A stretch of 64,000 bases of DNA from positions 372,001 to 436,000 of the forward strand of contig NZ_JAJIRO010000001.1 in the NCBI RefSeq assembly GCF_025717535.1, written 5' to 3'. The position numbers and the translations under genes were made by a program. The notes under the pieces are model-generated. The model worked only from the letters and a program-made list of their open reading frames with translations, was not told where the DNA came from and searched no databases. Origin of the DNA: Paucibacter sp. Y2R2-4. GTDB taxonomy: Bacteria > Pseudomonadota > Gammaproteobacteria > Burkholderiales > Burkholderiaceae_C. Position 1 is the stretch's first letter. Each line of letters starts with the position of its first letter. Below are positions 38,228 to 46,303 of the stretch, piece by piece.

Positions 38228-39411
38228 GGCTTGCCGGCCGGCTCGAACAGATTGAGCCTTTCTATGTAATGGAGTGCGCCAAGGCGGCGGCGGAAATCGC
38301 CCGCGGCCCCTTGTGCGACCCGGCACTGGGCGGCCGGCGCATGATCTTTCTGAACATCGGCGAGCCCGACTTTGTGGCCCCTGCTGCGGCTCAAGCCGCG
38401 GCCAAGGCCTGCATTGATGCTGGCCTCACGCAGTACACCCCGGCCACCGGCTTGCTGGCCTTGCGACAAGCCTTGTCGCGCTGGTACGCTGAGCGTTTCG
38501 CCTTGGACATCAGCCCAGAACGCATCGTCATCACCGCCGGCGCCTCCGCCGCGCTGCAGCTGGCCTGTTTGGCCTTGTTCGAGCGCGGCGACGAGGTCTT
38601 GATGCCGGACCCCTGCTATCCCTGCAACCGCCATTTCGTGGCCGCTGCAGACGCCAGCGCCATCTTGCTGCCCTGCGGGCCTGAGCAACGCTTTCAGCCC
38701 AGCCAAGCGCAGGTCGAAGCGGCCTGGAATGCCAATACGCGCGGCGTGCTGCTGGCCTCGCCCAGCAACCCGACCGGCACCTCGATTGAAGCCGAGGTTT
38801 TGCGCGACATCGTAGAAACCGTGCGCGCCAAAGGCGGCGTGACCCTGGTCGACGAGATCTATCTGGGCCTGAGCTATGACAGCCGTTTCGAACGCAGTGC
38901 TTTGGCCTTGGGCTCCGATGTCATCTCGGTGAACAGCTTCTCTAAGTACTTTGGCATGACCGGCTGGCGACTGGGCTGGATGGTGTTGCCGCCCGACTTG
39001 GTGGCCCCCATCGAGAAGCTGAGCCAAAACCTCTTCATCTGCCCTTCCAGCATCGCACAGCATGCGGCGCTGGCCTGCTTCGGGACGGCATCAATGGCCG
39101 AGTACGAGCTGCGGCGGCAGGCGTTTCGCGAACGCCGAGATTACCTGGTGCCGGCGCTTCAAGCGCTCGGCTTGCCTGTTCCCGTCATGCCGGATGGCGC
39201 CTTCTACGCATGGATTGATGTCTCCGGCGTTTGCGACAACAGCTGGGACTTGGCTTTCGAGCTGATGCACAAGGCGCAGATCGCCCTGACGCCAGGCCGA
39301 GACTTCGGTCGCGCGGACGCGCAGCGCTGGATGCGCCTCTCCTTCGCCTCCAGCATGGAAGATTTGCGCGAAACCGTCGCTCGCCTGGGCGAGTTTTTGC
39401 ACCGAGCATGA
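38224..39411 (+). CDS. PLP-dependent aminotransferase, class I/II
   Basis: The 395-residue protein is a fold-type I aminotransferase, with [21 protein letters not shown] and the PLP-lysine motif [17 protein letters not shown]. It starts at ATG 38224, overlapping nusB. Placement between nusB and ybgC is common in betaproteobacteria. An alanine- or aspartate-like amino donor is likely, but substrate specificity cannot be read. Confidence 0.88.
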
Positions 39412-39857
39412 AGCGACTGCCCCCACCGTTTGAGCGCGAGATGCGCGTGTATTGGGAAGACACCGACGCCGGCGGCGTGGTGTTCTATGCCAACTACCTG
39501 AAGTTCTTCGAGCGCGCGCGCACCGAGTGGCTCAGGGCACAGGGCTTCTCGCAAGAAGCCATGCGTTTGCAAACCGGGGTGATGTTCGTCGTCAGCAACA
39601 CCCAGGTGCGTTACCTGAGCCCGGCGCGGCTGGATGACTTGCTGCGCGTCACGGTCGAAGTCCGCGAGCTCGGCCGCGCCAGCATGCTGCTGTTTCAGCG
39701 CGCTTTTTGCGGCGAGCGCCTGCTGGCGGAAGGTGAAATCCGCATTGGCTGCGTCAGCAGCTTAGACACAATGGGGCCGGCTCACGCCGACCTGAAGCCC
39801 ACCCGTATTCCAGCCTCGCTGCTCGAGGCCATCAACCAAGACTGTTCGGATTCATGA
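39408..39857 (+). CDS. ybgC: acyl-CoA thioesterase YbgC
   Basis: The 149-residue hotdog-fold protein has YWEDTDAGGVVFYANYLKFF with the catalytic Asp/His-type region and RARTEWLRAQGFSQ. It hydrolyses acyl-CoA at the membrane. The start at 39408 is fixed by the ATGA overlap with the aminotransferase, and its stop overlaps the tolQ start. YbgC usually opens the tol-pal cluster, as here. Confidence 0.95.
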   Translation: MKRLPPPFEREMRVYWEDTDAGGVVFYANYLKFFERARTEWLRAQGFSQEAMRLQTGVMFVVSNTQVRYLSPARLDDLLRVTVEVRELGRASMLLFQRAFCGERLLAEGEIRIGCVSSLDTMGPAHADLKPTRIPASLLEAINQDCSDS

Positions 39858-40555
39858 ATCAAGATTTATCGATTGTTTCCTTGATTGCCCACGCCAGCCT
39901 GGCGGTGCAGTTGGTGATTGCCGCCCTGCTGATCGTGTCGCTGGCCAGTTGGAGCGTGATCTTTGGCAAGCTGATTGCACTGTCGCGCATCAAGACCGGC
40001 AACGACGCTTTTGAACAAGAATTCTGGTCTGGCAAGAATCTGAACGACCTTTACAACGGCGTGGCCACCAAGACCAACGGCGCCCCGCTGGAGCGGATTT
40101 TTGCCTCCGGCATGCGCGAGTTTTTGAAGCTGCGTGAACGCCGCGTCACCGAAGCCGGCGCCCTGCTGGACGGCGCGCGCCGCGCCATGCGGGCCAGCTT
40201 CCAACGCGAACTCGACGCGATGGAAAGCAATCTGTCCTTCTTGGCTTCGGTCGGCTCCGTCTCGCCCTATGTGGGTCTGTTCGGCACCATCTGGGGCATC
40301 ATGCACGCCTTTGTTGGCTTGTCGAATGTGCAACAAGTGACCCTGGCCACCGTGGCCCCCGGCATTGCCGAAGCTTTGGTGGCCACCGCCATTGGCTTGT
40401 TCGCGGCCATTCCTGCCGTGTTGGCCTACAACCGATTTGCGCGCCAGATCGACCGCAGCGCCATCACGCTGGAGTCCTTCATCGAAGAGTTCTCCAATAT
40501 CTTGCAACGCAATGCCAGCCAGCCGCCTGCCCAGGCCGCTGGTTCGGTGCGCTGA
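39854..40555 (+). CDS. tolQ: Tol-Pal system inner-membrane protein TolQ
   Basis: The 233-residue protein has three membrane helices; LFGTIWGIMHAFVGLSNVQQ and GIAEALVATAIGLFAAIPAV carry the conserved motor residues. TolQ forms the stator channel with TolR and is powered by the proton gradient. It starts on the ybgC stop (ATGA). Confidence 0.96.
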   Translation: MNQDLSIVSLIAHASLAVQLVIAALLIVSLASWSVIFGKLIALSRIKTGNDAFEQEFWSGKNLNDLYNGVATKTNGAPLERIFASGMREFLKLRERRVTEAGALLDGARRAMRASFQRELDAMESNLSFLASVGSVSPYVGLFGTIWGIMHAFVGLSNVQQVTLATVAPGIAEALVATAIGLFAAIPAVLAYNRFARQIDRSAITLESFIEEFSNILQRNASQPPAQAAGSVR

Positions 40556-40571
40556 ACTCCAGGATTAGCAG

Positions 40572-41000
40572 ATGGCAGCCATCAGCGCCCGCGGCTCGCG
40601 TCGCCGCCGCACCATCAATGAAATCAATATGGTGCCCTTCATTGACGTGATGTTGGTCTTGTTGATCATCTTCATGGTCAGCGCACCGATGATCACCACG
40701 GGCCTCGTCGATCTGCCCAGCGTTGGCAAGAGTCGCGCCCAGCCCGAGCATGTGATTCATGTCATCGTCAGTGCCGATGAGAAGTTGAAGATCAAGCTGG
40801 ACAAGGACGAAGGCCAGTCCGTGACCTTGAATCGTTTGGCCGAACGGGTCAAGCAAGCGCAGGACGGGCAGGCCAATACCCCGGTCGTGATTTCGGCCGA
40901 CAAGTCCGTCAAGTACGAGGCGGTGGTCAAGGTCATGGACATCTTGCAAAGCTCCGGCGTGCAGCGCGTGGGCCTGGCGGTTCGCAACAGCGGTGGCTGA
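40572..41000 (+). CDS. tolR: Tol-Pal system protein TolR
   Basis: The 142-residue ExbD/TolR protein has an N-terminal helix carrying the protonatable Asp (NMVPFIDVMLVLLIIFMV) and a periplasmic domain. It works with TolQ to energise TolA. Upstream is tolQ (16-bp gap) and downstream tolA (8-bp gap). Confidence 0.95.
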   Translation: MAAISARGSRRRRTINEINMVPFIDVMLVLLIIFMVSAPMITTGLVDLPSVGKSRAQPEHVIHVIVSADEKLKIKLDKDEGQSVTLNRLAERVKQAQDGQANTPVVISADKSVKYEAVVKVMDILQSSGVQRVGLAVRNSGG

Positions 41001-41008
41001 TTGACCCG

Positions 41009-41917
41009 ATGGCAGCCACGCTTTTTTTACGTAACGCCGATCCATTGCGGCCTCCCGAGGCGCCCGGCCTGGGCCGCGGTTTGCTGTTCGCCGTCATCGC
41101 GCATGCCGCCTTGCTTGCGGCTTTAAGCGCCGGCGTGCAATGGCGCACCAAAGCCCCTCCGGCATTTGAAGCCGAATTGTGGTCCGCAGTGCCCCAAGCA
41201 GCGGCGCCCAAAGAAGTCATTCCGCCCGAACCTGAGCCCGAACCAGAAGTCGCCAAGCCGCAGCCCAAGCCTGCACCGCCTCCGCCACAGGAGGACCTGC
41301 AGGCGGAGCGCGATGCGGAGATCGCCATCGCCAAGGCGCGCGAGCAAAAAATCAAGCGCGAGCAAGAAGCCAAACGCCTGGCCGAAGAAGCCGAGCGCAA
41401 GAAGCAACTCGCCGCCAAGGAAAAGCTCGAACGCGAGAAAGAAGAAAAGCTCAAGCAAGCCAAGCTCGAGAAAGAAAAGCTAGACAAGCAAAAACAGGCT
41501 AAGGAAAGCAAGGAAACCGAGGCCCGTCGCGAAGCGAAGCTGGAAGCGCAGCGCCAAGAAAACCTCAAGCGCATCCAGGGCATGGCGGGCGCCAGCGGCG
41601 GCGCCAATGCCACCGGCACGGCCTTGAAGAGCTCCGGCCCTTCAGCCAGTTATGCCGGCCGCATCATGGCGCGCATTCGTCCCAACATCATTTACAACGG
41701 CGCGCCCAGCGGCAACCCGGTGGCGGAGGTGGAAGTGCGAGTGGCTCCGGACGGCGCCATCATTTCGCGCAAACTGCTCAAGCCCAGTGGCGACGCCGAC
41801 TGGGACAAAGCCGTGCTGCGCGCCATCGACAAGACCGAGACCTTGCCGCGCGACACCGATGGCCGCGTGCCGCCCCTGATGGTGTTCAGCTTCGATCCGC
41901 GCGAGCAAACGCTTTGA
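41009..41917 (+). CDS. tolA: Tol-Pal system protein TolA
   Basis: The 302-residue protein has an N-terminal membrane helix, then a Pro/Glu stretch and a long Lys/Glu/Ala-rich coiled coil of about 90 residues (REKEEKLKQAKLEKEKLDK). The TonB-like C-terminal domain ends in VPPLMVFSFDPREQ. TolA spans the periplasm to bind Pal/TolB at the outer membrane. The cluster stops here: tolB and pal do not follow, and convergent genes begin 17 bp later. Confidence 0.94.
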   Translation: MAATLFLRNADPLRPPEAPGLGRGLLFAVIAHAALLAALSAGVQWRTKAPPAFEAELWSAVPQAAAPKEVIPPEPEPEPEVAKPQPKPAPPPPQEDLQAERDAEIAIAKAREQKIKREQEAKRLAEEAERKKQLAAKEKLEREKEEKLKQAKLEKEKLDKQKQAKESKETEARREAKLEAQRQENLKRIQGMAGASGGANATGTALKSSGPSASYAGRIMARIRPNIIYNGAPSGNPVAEVEVRVAPDGAIISRKLLKPSGDADWDKAVLRAIDKTETLPRDTDGRVPPLMVFSFDPREQTL

Positions 41918-41934: not shown

Positions 41935-42432
41935 TCAAGCGGTACGCGAACGGATCAGAGCGTCCAGCGAGATGCGTCCCGAGCCCCATAGCGCCACCAT
42001 CAGGAGCAATGCGCCCCAAAGCTGATGGCCCGCCAGGGCTGCGGGGGCAATCTCGGACAGGCTCAGTACCGCCACCACATTGACGACCGACAAACCCAAG
42101 GCTGCAAAGCGACCGCCCAAGCCCAGAACCAGCAAGACAGGCAAGGCCATCTCACCTGCAGTGCCGGCGTAAGCGGCCCATTCAGGCGGCAGCAAGGGCA
42201 CTTGGTACTCGTCTTGGAACAAGGCCAGGGTGATGGACCAATCACGGATTTTGGTCAAACCCGAGAGAAAAAAGACTTGGGCGACATAGAGTCTGGCGAG
42301 CAGCAGACTGATGGATTGGGCCAGCTCCAAAGCGCGCTGCAGCCAAAAGGGATGAGGCTTGCGGGCATCAACATCAGCGGCAAAGCCAGGATCGCACAAG
42401 AACCGCCAAGTGAGCGTAGCAAGGTCTTTCAT
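41935..42432 (-). CDS. DoxX-family membrane protein (bufferin/Gig operon)
   Basis: The 165-residue protein from 42432 has four predicted membrane helices and DoxX features (LLARLYVAQVFFLSGLTKIRD, GTAGEMALPVLLVLGLGGRF). It is the last gene of the operon that begins with the small peptide gene at 44342-44620. The same order (DUF2282, DUF692, DUF2063, DoxX) is the gigPABT / buf arrangement, in which this member is called GigT or BufD. A redox or quinone-linked role is suggested for the family but unproven. Confidence 0.88.
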   Translation of the reverse strand: MKDLATLTWRFLCDPGFAADVDARKPHPFWLQRALELAQSISLLLARLYVAQVFFLSGLTKIRDWSITLALFQDEYQVPLLPPEWAAYAGTAGEMALPVLLVLGLGGRFAALGLSVVNVVAVLSLSEIAPAALAGHQLWGALLLMVALWGSGRISLDALIRSRTA

Positions 42433-42488
42433 GGTTTGAGCTTTCTCATGGCACGCAGGCCATGGCATTTCTTGAGGGTGAAGCGAAT

Positions 42489-43331
42489 TCAGACTTCAGC
42501 GTCTGTTCGCACCATTTCAAAAGCGCCTTGCAAGAGTTCGCTGCGCAAAGCGTCTTGCAAGAACAAAGAAAAGTCGAAGTCCGGGCCGGCCTGAACCAAG
42601 CCAGCGTCAAGACTGGCACCCGCTTGCAGGGCCTGCAGAAACAGCGCTTCTCCGTGGCGAAGAAGCCGCCCTTGAACACGCCAAGACTGGCGCGAGAGCA
42701 GAACCGAAACGGGCTGAGCGTCATCGACCTCTACGCCCTGCACCTCTGCTGATTGCCAAAGCTGCCAGGCTTGTTGACCGACTTGCAGTACTTGCAAACC
42801 CGGCCGCAGTCGCAAGCCCAAGCGCTCAGGCTCCAGCGCAGCCAATAGCTGTAATGAAGAAGCATCAGCCTGCCCGTCTTCGGCTCGCTCGAGCTGATGC
42901 GCCGCCCACTCCAAGCGCGCCAGATCGATCAGCCAAGCGTCCATGTCTTGCTGCGCACTGAGAAACGCAGGCAGTTGCTCGCCCCACAGCCCTAAGTCTC
43001 CCTGGCTGGGCGGGCATTGCCGCCAAAACTGCCAGGCCATGGCACGAAACCCCTCGTCGCCCAGCTGCGCTTCAACACCAGCGTAGACACCCGCCAAAAC
43101 CTTGGCGGACAAGGCCTGAGCGTTCAAACGGTAGGCCAGCAGTCCTCGATCGAGTCCTGCATGCTCTTCTGATTTCGGATCATCAGGAGCGCTCGGGTCG
43201 AGGCTCGGAGTTGATGTGTTTTTTACGCCGGCCAAGGAGCGCAAACCGAGCGATCTTGCTTCCTTGTTGACGCCGACTTCATGCGCCAACAAGGCCGCTA
43301 CAAAGCCTTCTTGCTGTGCCTTCAGACTCAT
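42489..43331 (-). CDS. DUF2063 MNIO partner protein (BufC/HvfC/GigB-like)
   Basis: The 280-residue protein starts at the ATG that overlaps the stop of the MNIO gene. [20 protein letters not shown] and [20 protein letters not shown] are the DUF2063 signatures. In bufferin systems this partner delivers the precursor peptide to the MNIO enzyme. It lies 56 bp before the DoxX gene. Confidence 0.9.
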
Positions 43332-44308
43332 GATGAACACTGCCCCGCGTCTGTTGGGCAGAGCTCGGCCATCCATGCACCCGCTTGGGCGATTTCACCC
43401 ATCAGCACCGACAAGGCCGGGACCTCGGTATCCCATTCGATCAAGCTCGGTACAGGCCCCAGGCGCCGCAGCGCATGGGCATAGATCTGCCAGACCTCGG
43501 GCGCCACGCGACTGCCATGGTCGTCGATGACGATCCCGGGCAATTCAGCATGGCCGGCCAAATGGATTTCGCCCACCAGGCCGGGCCGCAAGGCGTCAAT
43601 CCATGCACAAGCTTCTTTCACTGAATCCGCCTTGCTAAGGCCGAGATTGCGCGCATTGACGAAAAGATTGTTCACATCCAACAGCAGGGCGCAGCCACTT
43701 TGCCGACAGAGCTGATTGAAGAACTCGGGCTCGCTCAAGGTGTTGCCTTCCCAGCCCACGTAGGCGCTGAGGTTTTCAATCAGCATGGGTCGCCGCAAGC
43801 GCTCCTGCACTTGCTGCACATGACTGACCATCAAGCGCAAGCTGGCCTCAGTGAATGGTATTGGCAAGAGATCGTTCGCATGCACCGCCTGCGATGTCAC
43901 GACCCTCGCAAAGCTGGCGTGGTCAGAAACCCGGACCGGATCCACCCGTTTCACCAAAGCAGCCAGGCGATCCAAATGCCAGCGGTCCAGCCCACAGGCC
44001 GAACCCAGGGACAGGCCCACCCCATGCAGGCTGATGGGATAGTGCTCACGCGCCGCCATCAAGACCGACAAACTAGCGCCGCCTTCAGCAAAGAAGTTCT
44101 CGGAATGAACTTCCAAGAAACCGAGGGGCGGCAAGGTCAGCAGCAGCTCTTGATAGTGAGGCTGGCGCCATCCAATACCCAAGAGCTGACGCAGCTCCCC
44201 ATCGTTCGACAAGGTCTGGCCCACAAGCGGCGTAGGCACAAAAGCGGCTTGCCGCTGCGTGGGCACATGCGCCTTGACGGTGTCGATGGAGGAGTCCATG
44301 CGGCGCAT
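43328..44308 (-). CDS. DUF692 multinuclear iron-dependent oxidase (BufB/HvfB/GigA-like)
   Basis: The 326-residue TIM-barrel MNIO has metal-ligand motifs [59 protein letters not shown] and EWDTEVP. In described bufferin systems the enzyme converts precursor cysteines to copper-binding heterocycles. The start is uncertain: ATG at 44308 or 44299, or TTG at 44317. It follows the peptide gene by 33 bp and overlaps the next gene (ATGA). Confidence 0.93.
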
Positions 44309-44341
44309 CTTGGGCAATTGGCAAACAGCTGTGACTCGGCC

Positions 44342-44620
44342 TTACTTCTTCAGCTTGGCCTTGGCTTCGTCGGCGCTCATGCCGTTCATGGTCTTGCAGC
44401 TGCCCTTGCTGACGTACTTCCACTCTTCTGGCGCCATGTCCGTTTTGGCCTGGCCCGCGCAGGAATGGGATCCACTCAGATTGGCGCAATCATTCTCGCC
44501 AGCCTTGGCGATACCGAAGCATTTTTCCTTAGCGGTCTTGTCTTGGGCTACGGCTTGACCGAACAGCCCCAAGGACAGGGCAGCAGCCACGGCGGAACTG
44601 ACGATGATCTTTGAATTCAT
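44342..44620 (-). CDS. DUF2282 exported precursor peptide (bufferin/GigP-like)
   Basis: The 92-residue peptide has a Sec-type signal ([18 protein letters not shown]) and a mature part with exactly four cysteines (34, 45, 54, 75) in [22 protein letters not shown] and GSCKTMNG. This is the DUF2282 / BufA1 pattern, the substrate of MNIO-type modification. Known relatives bind copper and are induced by copper or gold. The start after AGGAG at 44620 is clear. It is the first gene of the operon and divergent from an ECF sigma gene. Confidence 0.93.
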
Positions 44621-44802
44621 GAAAAGCACTCCTGTACAAGCACGATAAAAGTTGACGAGAGAGAGACCCACACCCCAGACGCTAGACCCCCCAAAAAAAG
44701 GTCACCCTGGAGTCAGGGCCGACGGATCATGCCGCCGACAGCACTCTGTCGCAAGCGCACACTCAGTCCTTACACTGCGGTCTCAAAAATATTTCTACGC
44801 CC

Positions 44803-45384
44803 ATGCCCGAATTCGCCAAAGCGCTGAACGCTCTGCGCCCGCAGTTGCTGAAATACGCCCAAATGCAGTTGCGCAACAGCAGCTGGGCGGAGGACGCCGT
44901 GTCCGAAACCCTCTTGGCCGCGTTTGAGAAGCCGCAGAGTTTCAGCGGCAGCTCACAGCTGAAGACTTGGTTGATCGGCATCCTCAAACACAAACTGATC
45001 GACCAAATCCGGCGCAATTGCCGTGAAATGTCGACCACGGCAGAAGATGGCGAGGACTTGGACGAGGACTTGTTCAAGCCCGACGGTCACTGGCGTGACA
45101 GCCCCAAGCACTGGGGAGACCCCGAGCATTGCCTGGACCAAATGGACTTCATGCGCGTGCTGGAAGCCTGCGTAGAACACCTGCCCGGCCAGCAAGGGCG
45201 CCTCTTCATGATGCGCGAATGGCTGGAGCTGGACACCGAGGAGATCTGTAAGGAATTGAAGCTCAGCCCGACCAATCTGTGGGTCATGCTGCACCGCGCC
45301 CGGCTGAGGCTGCGCGAATGCTTGCAACACAATTGGTTTGACAACAACAAGGGCCAGGCCCTGCCGGCCGGAGAAAAAGCATGA
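44803..45384 (+). CDS. ECF sigma factor divergent from the bufferin operon
   Basis: The 193-residue sigma-70-family protein has region 2 (QLRNSSWAEDAVSETLLAAF, KTWLIGILKHKLIDQIRR) and region 4 (LELDTEEICKELKLSPTNLW). It begins 183 bp from the start of the peptide gene, read in the opposite direction, and is coupled by ATGA to a zinc-binding anti-sigma gene. ECF factors next to bufferin/Gig operons often control them. Confidence 0.92.
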   Translation: MPEFAKALNALRPQLLKYAQMQLRNSSWAEDAVSETLLAAFEKPQSFSGSSQLKTWLIGILKHKLIDQIRRNCREMSTTAEDGEDLDEDLFKPDGHWRDSPKHWGDPEHCLDQMDFMRVLEACVEHLPGQQGRLFMMREWLELDTEEICKELKLSPTNLWVMLHRARLRLRECLQHNWFDNNKGQALPAGEKA

Positions 45385-45617
45385 GTGGCAAGTTTGGGTT
45401 TTCCACTTGCAAAGAAGTCACACATTTGGTGCTTCAAGGTGAAGACCGACAACTGGGTGTGACTGAACGCCTCAAGGTGCGCATGCATCTGATGATCTGC
45501 AAGGCCTGCCCCATCTTTGCTGAGCAGGTGGCCTTGATGCGACAAGCCAGCCAGCGTTGGCGTCAATATTCTGAGACCGCTGACAGTTCAGGAACGGACC
45601 CAAGCCCTCGTCCTTGA
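45381..45617 (+). CDS. zinc-binding anti-sigma factor (ZAS type), small
   Basis: The 78-residue protein has the ZAS signature His36-x3-Cys40-x2-Cys43 (MHLMICKACPIF) with a further Cys10. It has no membrane helix, so it would be a cytoplasmic anti-sigma of the RsrA/ChrR class, releasing its sigma on thiol oxidation or metal binding. It is coupled to the sigma gene (ATGA overlap). Confidence 0.88.
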   Translation: MSGKFGFSTCKEVTHLVLQGEDRQLGVTERLKVRMHLMICKACPIFAEQVALMRQASQRWRQYSETADSSGTDPSPRP

Positions 45618-45646: not shown

Positions 45647-46303
45647 TCAGTTCAAGGTGCCGCCGCTCAGGCGTAAATCGATGTCGGTATTCATGGCCAA
45701 CTGCAAAGCCAAGCGCACGCCTGCCACCATGGACGCCAGACTCATGCTGGGCTGAGGCGCCGCGCGGGAGGCCTGCTCCGGCAGCAAAGGCACATGCATA
45801 AAGCCGCTACGCACCGGCTGATCTCGCAGCTGGTGTTGCAGACCATAGAAGACATGGTTGCAAACAAAGGTGCCTGCGGTTTGCGAGACCTCAGCCGGAT
45901 GGCCCGCCGCACGCAAGCCCGCCACCATGGCCTTGATCGGCAGCGTCGAGAAATAGGCGGCCGGCCCTTGCGGCAGCACCGGCTCGTCAATCGGCTGGCG
46001 GCCGGCATTGTCGGCAATGCGTGCATCGTCGATATTGATGGCCACACGCTCCAAAGACAGGGCATTGCGTCCACTGGCCTGACCCAAGGCCAAGACCAAG
46101 ACCAAGACCGGCGCATGCTGCGACAAAGCCGCTTGCAGGCTCAGCAAAGACTCGCCGAAGACACAGGGCAGGCAATGGGCCACCACTTCGGCGCCCACGA
46201 TGTGCTCACCCTGCAGCGCCCGCGCGATCTCCCAAGCAGGGTTGATCGTTTCGCCGCCAAAGGGCTCAAATCCCGTCAAGAGGATCTTTTTCTGATGTCT
46301 CAC
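45647..46303 (-). CDS. pcp: pyrrolidone-carboxylate peptidase
   Basis: The 218-residue peptidase C15 has LLTGFEPFGGETINPAWEIA, the Glu region SGRNALSLERVAIN, catalytic Cys in TAGTFVCNHVFYGL and His in GFMHVPLLPEQ. It removes N-terminal pyroglutamate from peptides. It is convergent with the anti-sigma gene. The chemistry is distinct from, but shares 5-oxoproline with, the ChaC-like protein at 13.3 kb. Confidence 0.93.
   Translation of the reverse strand: MRHQKKILLTGFEPFGGETINPAWEIARALQGEHIVGAEVVAHCLPCVFGESLLSLQAALSQHAPVLVLVLALGQASGRNALSLERVAINIDDARIADNAGRQPIDEPVLPQGPAAYFSTLPIKAMVAGLRAAGHPAEVSQTAGTFVCNHVFYGLQHQLRDQPVRSGFMHVPLLPEQASRAAPQPSMSLASMVAGVRLALQLAMNTDIDLRLSGGTLN

Follow-up and report, generated by a model that had tools for sequence, protein, structure and literature searches.

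The stretch of DNA considered here (the window, 64,000 nucleotides) derives from Paucibacter sp. Y2R2-4, a member of the family Burkholderiaceae_C (contig NZ_JAJIRO010000001.1, positions 372,001 to 436,000). It contains a type-1 bufferin operon, beginning with the gene for the peptide Buf1, next to a divergently encoded pair comprising an extracytoplasmic function (ECF) sigma factor and a soluble zinc-binding anti-sigma (ZAS) protein. Comparative sequence analysis indicates that this operon is probably controlled by the dedicated ECF sigma factor, and that the sigma factor probably carries its own brake. One predicted sigma-dependent promoter lies in the divergent spacer and faces Buf1, and another is embedded within the sigma gene and faces the anti-sigma gene. 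The operon itself is of a known kind; the new elements are the ZAS-linked Buf1 module with its predicted promoter and the codon-constrained, putative anti-sigma promoter. No report of an embedded anti-sigma promoter or of a ZAS-linked Buf1 operon was found for this family in searches of open-access papers.

The divergent arrangement (divergon) recurs more often than expected by chance, with 59 cases among 97 sigma loci from the family and 62 among 80 sigma loci of a named set. The family loci, which include that of the window, surround anti-sigma matches in a sample of 200 genomes, 93 of which encode a relative of the anti-sigma protein. Twelve loci were dropped before the count of 97 (eight were replaced by longer stretches, and four are from the window's own genome, including locus L001 with its Buf2 operon), and loci L049 and L083 were excluded because they have no sigma match. 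The 59 family divergons, in which Buf1 lies within 1000 bp, represent 42 genera; one further locus has Buf1 at 2299 bp, and 37 have none. Searches of the 62 linked named loci by tblastn detect the MNIO maturase in 62, the DUF2063 partner in 60, and DoxX in 57. The named sigma loci closest to that of the window, in a set that may omit records of its own genome, come from Roseateles, Paucibacter, and a Burkholderiales assembly without further classification (87% identity). Of the 12 loci with a gap of 500-1000 bp between sigma and Buf1, eight (L044, L046, L051, L054, L067, L070, L076, and L110) have a TlpA/redoxin-like gene there, as judged from the longest open reading frame, with one of these tested against Pfam.

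The predicted promoter of the bufferin operon (44748..44775, minus strand) consists of a -35 element GTAAGGACT (44773-44765), a 13-nucleotide spacer, and a -10 element CGAC (44751-44748). It lies 127 nucleotides upstream of the Buf1 ATG, within a divergent gap of 182 bp. A TGTAA-type element faces Buf1 in 55 of the 59 family divergons, with CGAC at the right distance in 46 of these, and the promoter model was built on 20 of the 55 sites. The dyad TAAG-17-CGAC is found in this orientation in 24 of the 47 spacers shorter than 260 bp, whereas none of five shuffles gave more than 4. The fuller pattern faces Buf1 in 47 of 59 family divergons, versus none in reversed sequence, none on the other strand, and 0.0045 per shuffled spacer; in both comparisons, shuffling preserves single-base composition only. 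In the named set, the pattern faces Buf1 in all 62 divergons and faces sigma in none of the 80 loci, and the full motif was likewise not found facing sigma within 300 bp across the 97 family loci. Among the 42 genera with the divergon, the promoter pattern is present in 34 and the embedded pattern in 35, in at least one species each.

The GTAAGGACT element agrees at eight of nine positions with the -35 of Neisseria sigmaE, whose consensus is given as GTMAGBWTT, a 12-13-nucleotide spacer, and CGTCTAAH (PMC2893595). The two predicted promoters of the window have spacers of 13 and 12 nucleotides, and their -10 element is CGAC versus CGTC. The -35 element is extended to AGTGTAA (44770-44776) in 39 of 59 linked spacers versus none of 24 unlinked Buf1 regions, a difference for which relatedness may account. 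On the opposite strand, AGTGTA reads TACACT, which is a possible housekeeping -10 for the sigma gene.

A first-pass annotation of this DNA had described the two transcription units as divergent, which is correct, and as 183 bp apart, which is not. It had also suggested that a C/A-rich tract and GGTCACC, placed at 44701-44707, could belong to an ECF promoter. The latter sequence is at 44700-44706, and the suggestion is not borne out, as the tract occurs in one of 59 spacers and GGTCACC or GGTGACC in five. Nearly all spacers instead conserve another element, about 40-75 bp nearer to sigma. The first-pass annotation also overlooked the promoter-like element within the sigma gene, the possible trans targets such as the Buf2 operon, and the distinction from the RpoQ/RsqA type.

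The embedded element TGTAAGGAATTGAAGCTCAGCCCGAC (45247..45272, plus strand) is predicted to comprise a -35 element GTAAGGAAT (45248-45256), a 12-nucleotide spacer, and a -10 element CGAC (45269-45272). It coincides with sigma codons 149-157, which encode the peptide CKELKLSPT of region 4, and it points to the anti-sigma gene, 108 nucleotides before the ATG. This motif was first noticed inside the sigma genes of unlinked loci. Across the 5.13-Mb genome, TGTAAGGAN13-16CGAC, the strict pattern, matches twice, at the Buf1 promoter and at the embedded site, and the reversed control also has two matches.

Synonymous codon usage is skewed in favour of this element. In 158 sigma genes (from the 97 and 80 loci, each distinct protein entering once), the whole embedded pattern is kept in 112, versus 17.2 expected from within-gene synonymous shuffles. 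Cys149 is encoded by TGT in 122 and by TGC in 34; for Cys123 and Cys173, TGC is used in 130 and 134 of the 158. Of the 51 conserved columns with two-fold codons, none is more skewed than Cys149 (z -22.5), and Glu151 follows it in that direction. A CG ending at codon 156 is seen in 139 of 154 genes versus 59 expected. The Cys149-Lys150 pair is written TGTAAG in 114 of 131 cases, and Cys-Lys in the adjacent ZAS genes in none of 60. Sequences conforming to TGTAAG-N15-17-CGAC occur 111 times at codon 149 and nowhere else, on either strand, in the 158 genes. We infer that the element is a sigma-dependent promoter of the anti-sigma gene, and so a built-in brake. It is found in 87 of 103 Buf1-linked and 25 of 55 unlinked sigma genes, an association supported by the Fisher test. 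Parsimony assigns 15 changes to the Cys149 codon, 23 to Cys123, 22 to Cys173, and 22 to the full element, which therefore has been gained or lost repeatedly.

The sigma gene (44803..45384, plus strand) encodes 193 amino acids and matches NCBIfam PRK12520 (289.7 bits, cut-off 255) and TIGR02943 (238.7 bits, cut-off 162.2). The start of the anti-sigma gene (45381..45617, plus strand; 78 amino acids) overlaps the sigma stop. Its product scores 65.2 bits with NCBIfam antisigmaE (cut-off 50) and exactly at the cut-off of Pfam zf-HC2, and it has the motif C10-X25-H36-X3-C40-X2-C43. This fits the arrangement C/H-X23-26-H-X3-C-X2-C reported for ZAS proteins (PMC7907618) of the MseR, HrsE, and RsrA kind. 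No 19-residue stretch of the anti-sigma protein reaches 1.6 on the Kyte-Doolittle scale (maximum 1.26). The pair is of the Neisseria sigmaE/MseR kind. Assignment to the membrane type, RpoQ/RsqA, known from the original gig locus was considered and rejected, as the anti-sigma protein is of the ZAS family and lacks a membrane segment. The first-pass annotation had also recognized a divergent ECF sigma factor with a soluble ZAS, and its proposal of a cytoplasmic thiol or metal signal is supported as probable, because the anti-sigma protein is soluble.

Motif matches beyond the divergon suggest further targets. Upstream regions of unlinked Buf1 operons contain the motif in 10 of 24 cases (25 places before L123, which is linked and identical to L014, was left out). 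Where the pair is unlinked, the region upstream of sigma lacks the motif in 34 of 37 family loci and 15 of 18 named loci. DUF2282, the Buf1 family, was detected in 20 of 33 genomes searched for holding an unlinked pair, one of which (G118) also has a linked locus. It was also detected in 4 of 20 genomes without an anti-sigma match, out of 107 such genomes. In three of these four genomes, a weak sigma match lies on the strand divergent from Buf1; two of the three have an NrsF neighbour by Pfam, and the stretch examined for the third gave none. The four Buf1 regions have a GTAACC-type motif towards Buf1 in two cases and on the other strand in three. NrsF-linked Buf1 loci within the family have another promoter, GTAACC-N16-CGAA, a type published as the sigmaF promoter of Caulobacter (PMC3511200), and only this NrsF-type motif was seen to face away from Buf1 as well. 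The split among Buf1 regions therefore indicates one operon with two regulator modules (ZAS and NrsF), mostly with different promoters.

Within the Paucibacter genome, strict patterns and a 17-spacer model (one match at 35.3 bits, next 12.0, with 150 of 1697 candidates scored) suggest a single sigma target. That reading was widened because a relaxed site (L001:990-1016, contig 3) lies 112 nucleotides before a gene for BufA2 (NCBIfam 88.5 bits, cut-off 60), which belongs to Buf2, another MNIO operon. The relaxed pattern TGTAAGN15-18CGAC has 11 sites in this genome (Buf1, anti-sigma, and nine further), versus 24 in the control. Sites with one mismatch, of which there are seven, do not exceed the control in this genome (8 matches, including the exact one, versus 12). 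One other relaxed site (L252, C1:140304) is found 48 nucleotides before a gene for a DedA-like membrane protein, named by eye.

Of the 51 listed strict-pattern sites across 22 relatives (versus 15 in the control), 28 are Buf1 promoters or embedded sites. Divergon sites were separated from the others by hand from their coordinates, and 12 of the 23 others, in eleven stretches, were read. The genes that they precede encode BufA2 (89.2 bits, cut-off 60), an MNIO of the BufB type, an MsrP-like protein, exported proteins resembling thioredoxin (in two genomes), a radical SAM protein similar to ArsS (in two species of the same genus), and a response regulator, with four further products unassigned. 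For MNIO, MsrP, and ArsS, the names derive from fragments of 110 residues, which score below full-length cut-offs. The distance to the nearest listed start is 2-51 nucleotides for ten sites and more than 180 for two. This collection at most hints at envelope metal stress and thiol/methionine stress.

In unlinked sigma loci, motifs face away from sigma towards a YnjB-like transporter (L213, and as the second gene in L071) and, in L198, towards a membrane/FAD reductase fusion, all named by eye. A conjugative Klebsiella plasmid (L234) carries a related sigma/zf-HC2 pair beside MsrPQ, DoxX, and a DNA-binding-domain gene. An Acinetobacter plasmid (L237) has DUF692, DNA-binding-domain (DUF2063-like), sigma, and zf-HC2 genes in one row, with motif-like sites (TGTAAT...CGTC and TGTAAT...CGAC) at 1310 (plus strand), before the first gene of the row, and at 1264 (minus strand), before DoxX.

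These elements can be assembled into a conditional scheme. The ZAS protein would hold the sigma factor in the cytoplasm through its zinc site, with inhibition predicted by homology to MseR and HrsE. This site might be disrupted by a thiophilic metal, copper, or by a thiol-oxidizing agent like hypochlorite, which are the agents favoured here. Free sigma factor with RNA polymerase would then transcribe buf1, MNIO, DUF2063, and DoxX, and probably the Buf2 operon too. MNIO and the DUF2063 partner would modify the central cysteines of Buf1, and the exported peptide would serve as a periplasmic copper binder. The same sigma factor may fire the embedded promoter in its own gene and so yield extra anti-sigma protein. 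Since the sigma gene itself has no such element facing it, feedback would on balance be negative.

Several observations weigh against this scheme. The embedded copy is absent from 46 of the 158 sigma genes, and also from the Burkholderia and Acinetobacter sequences, the two of five distant plasmid relatives in which the codon region was located by pattern; three motif matches without a locus label were left out of that comparison. Among unlinked Buf1 regions, 14 of 24 lack the pattern, and two of these carry the sigmaF-type GTAACC-N15-17-CGAA. Conversely, the Buf1 region L148, from a genome in which no ZAS was found (G005), carries a sigmaE-type motif, as one of four such regions. The relaxed pattern is rarer in the Paucibacter genome than in its control, so single relaxed sites are weak, and strict sites outside divergons in the 22 relatives exceed their control by a small margin (23 versus 15). 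In addition, meningococcal sigmaE is reported to be unresponsive to peroxide, diamide, and singlet oxygen (PMC2893595).

The codon pattern in sigma could have been kept for another reason, such as mRNA structure, codon context, or shared descent, and the anti-sigma gene would then be transcribed only from the sigma transcript. In keeping with this, the peptide CKE...PT is itself conserved, in the C-terminal region 4, other columns are similarly codon-skewed (Leu61, Ser34, and Leu53 score at least as high by another measure), and the association of the embedded copy with Buf1 linkage is not significant in a tree-aware test with 6 independent pairs. The last two points also count against a built-in brake. 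However, the TGT codon of Cys149 runs against the local preference, Glu151 is skewed in the same direction, and codon 156 has its excess of CG endings. Moreover, TGTAAG never encodes Cys-Lys in the matches to Buf1, MNIO, DoxX, and ZAS that adjoin sigma in the named loci (0 of 94). This explanation of the codons is considered unlikely. A stronger version of the built-in brake is doubtful as well: it supposes a double code, in which the region-4 codons for the part of sigma that reads the -35 are themselves the -35/-10 of its inhibitor and, in addition, the AGTGTA of the bufferin -35 is the TACACT housekeeping -10 of sigma, so that firing of the operon would shut off sigma.

The nature of the signal is a separate matter. 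The pair might answer not metals but stress of the reactive chlorine, oxygen, or disulfide type, with bufferin as one part of an oxidant response. Hypochlorite and peroxide induce a related ZAS pair, RpoE2/HrsE of Haemophilus influenzae, which has msrAB under its control (PMC7907618), and of the 12 additional motif sites, one precedes an MsrP-like gene and two precede thioredoxin-like genes. In contrast, the main target makes a peptide of copper-binding type (PMC12452194), and the gig operon of Cupriavidus metallidurans is induced by copper and gold (PMC10304878). An oxidant signal in place of a metal is a serious possibility, somewhat less likely than not. Far less plausible is a standard gig module that receives a periplasmic signal through a membrane anti-sigma protein. 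The gene order and the divergent sigma gene match those of gigPABT-rpoQ-rsqA (PMC10304878), but the anti-sigma protein is a soluble ZAS, and Buf1 loci linked to NrsF within this family have the GTAACC-N16-CGAA promoter (PMC3511200). The reading we prefer remains a ZAS-controlled sigma factor that directs the bufferin operon and its own inhibitor.

The operon comprises Buf1, MNIO, the DUF2063 partner, and DoxX in the gigPABT order, as the first-pass annotation had stated; with the sigma/anti-sigma pair, all six genes are in place, with Pfam scores above cut-offs for the operon proteins and the sigma factor. The Buf1 precursor (44342..44620, minus strand; 92 amino acids) scores 84.1 bits with DUF2282 (cut-off 22.4). 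Described in that annotation as a four-cysteine exported peptide, it has a start that resembles a signal peptide, as judged from sequence and hydrophobicity, followed by cysteines 34, 45, 54, and 75, which are invariant across 16 aligned sequences (the window copy and 15 relatives). In peptides of the Buf1 type, the central cysteines are reported to be the modified ones and the outer two to form a disulfide (PMC12452194), and 5-thiooxazoles were assigned to the MNIO products studied elsewhere (PMC13097082).

The MNIO maturase (43328..44317, minus strand) scores 308.4 bits with Pfam MbnB_TglH_ChrH (cut-off 25) and 312.6 bits with NCBIfam MNIO_BufB (cut-off 310). Its listed open reading frame starts with TTG, and an ATG at 44308 or 44299 is likelier. 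Its PDB matches are 3bww (1.8e-33) and, at 4.7e-11, 8hci_D, which is the TglHI chain of the DUF692 family. The gene for the DUF2063 partner (PME type 1; 42489..43331, minus strand) most likely starts at ATG 43331, ends at a stop at 42489, and overlaps the MNIO stop; the remaining gaps in the operon are short. The protein scores 41.6 bits with Pfam DUF2063 (cut-off 27.2) and falls below the NCBIfam HvfC model (15.2 versus a cut-off of 142). Its AlphaFold model has a mean pLDDT (predicted local distance difference test) of 85, and the best PDB matches are chain A of TglHI (8hci, 8hi7) and NGO1945 (3dee). The last gene (41935..42468, minus strand) encodes a DoxX-family membrane protein, with 64.4 bits for Pfam DoxX (cut-off 23.6) and a score below the NCBIfam HvfX model (49.6 versus a cut-off of 80). 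Sequence searches of the PDB returned no match for the DUF2063 partner or the ZAS, and a best match of only E 0.36 for Buf1.

A pyroglutamyl-peptidase I gene (45647-46303, minus strand) is arranged tail-to-tail with the anti-sigma gene. Relatives of it are present in 35 of the 80 named loci, and in locus L122 one lies directly upstream of an unlinked Buf1; mature Buf1 may start with Gln. On the other side, a TolA gene and YbgC/TolQ/TolR-like genes (named by eye; 39231-41917, plus strand) converge on the DoxX end of the operon, and TolA matches recur across many named bufferin loci.

Comparative sequence analysis here provides a predicted promoter and a few candidate further targets for a copper-peptide operon. 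It also suggests that, within one family, one copper-peptide operon is served by alternative ZAS and NrsF modules, each with its own promoter. An embedded anti-sigma promoter that is visible as a synonymous codon constraint offers a sequence-only way to seek built-in feedback in other sigma/anti-sigma pairs.

Among known systems, gigPABT-rpoQ-rsqA of C. metallidurans resembles the window locus in the content and order of the operon and in the divergent ECF sigma/anti-sigma pair (PMC10304878). Its anti-sigma protein is predicted to be membrane-bound, whereas that of the window is a soluble ZAS, with a different sigma subfamily and a different promoter. An NrsF type for the gig anti-sigma protein is deduced from an alignment that includes a C. 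metallidurans protein (PMC3511200), and control of gig by RpoQ was assumed without direct evidence (PMC10304878). Caulobacter sigF-nrsF likewise exemplifies ECF control of Buf1-type operons, but with a membrane NrsF, the promoter GTAACC-N16-CGAA, and an autoregulated sigma gene (PMC3511200).

Closer in regulator type is sigmaE-MseR of Neisseria, in which a sigma factor with a small ZAS anti-sigma protein governs an operon of DoxX, MNIO, and DUF2063 genes (NMB2140-2145), and the -35 element and the 12-13-nucleotide spacing are similar (PMC2893595). The gonococcal counterpart has an EGKCG-type peptide (PMC13097082). The Neisseria genes form one polycistronic, autoregulated operon (PMC2893595), whereas in the window Buf1 is on a divergent operon, no motif faces sigma, and a copy lies inside sigma. 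RpoE2-HrsE of H. influenzae is also a soluble ZAS pair, with a DoxX/MNIO-type cluster among the putative targets of RpoE2. Unlike the pair studied here, it has an msrAB neighbourhood, an unlinked cluster, and weak autoregulation (PMC7907618).

A precedent for the embedded promoter is found in sigH-rshA of Corynebacterium glutamicum, where the sigma-dependent promoter of the ZAS gene (PrshA) lies inside the sigma coding region and sigH itself is transcribed from housekeeping promoters (PMC3489674). That system is an actinobacterial disulfide and heat regulon, and the portion of the report consulted mentions no codon-level conservation. Its authors suggest that the role of PrshA is a quick shut-down (PMC3489674).

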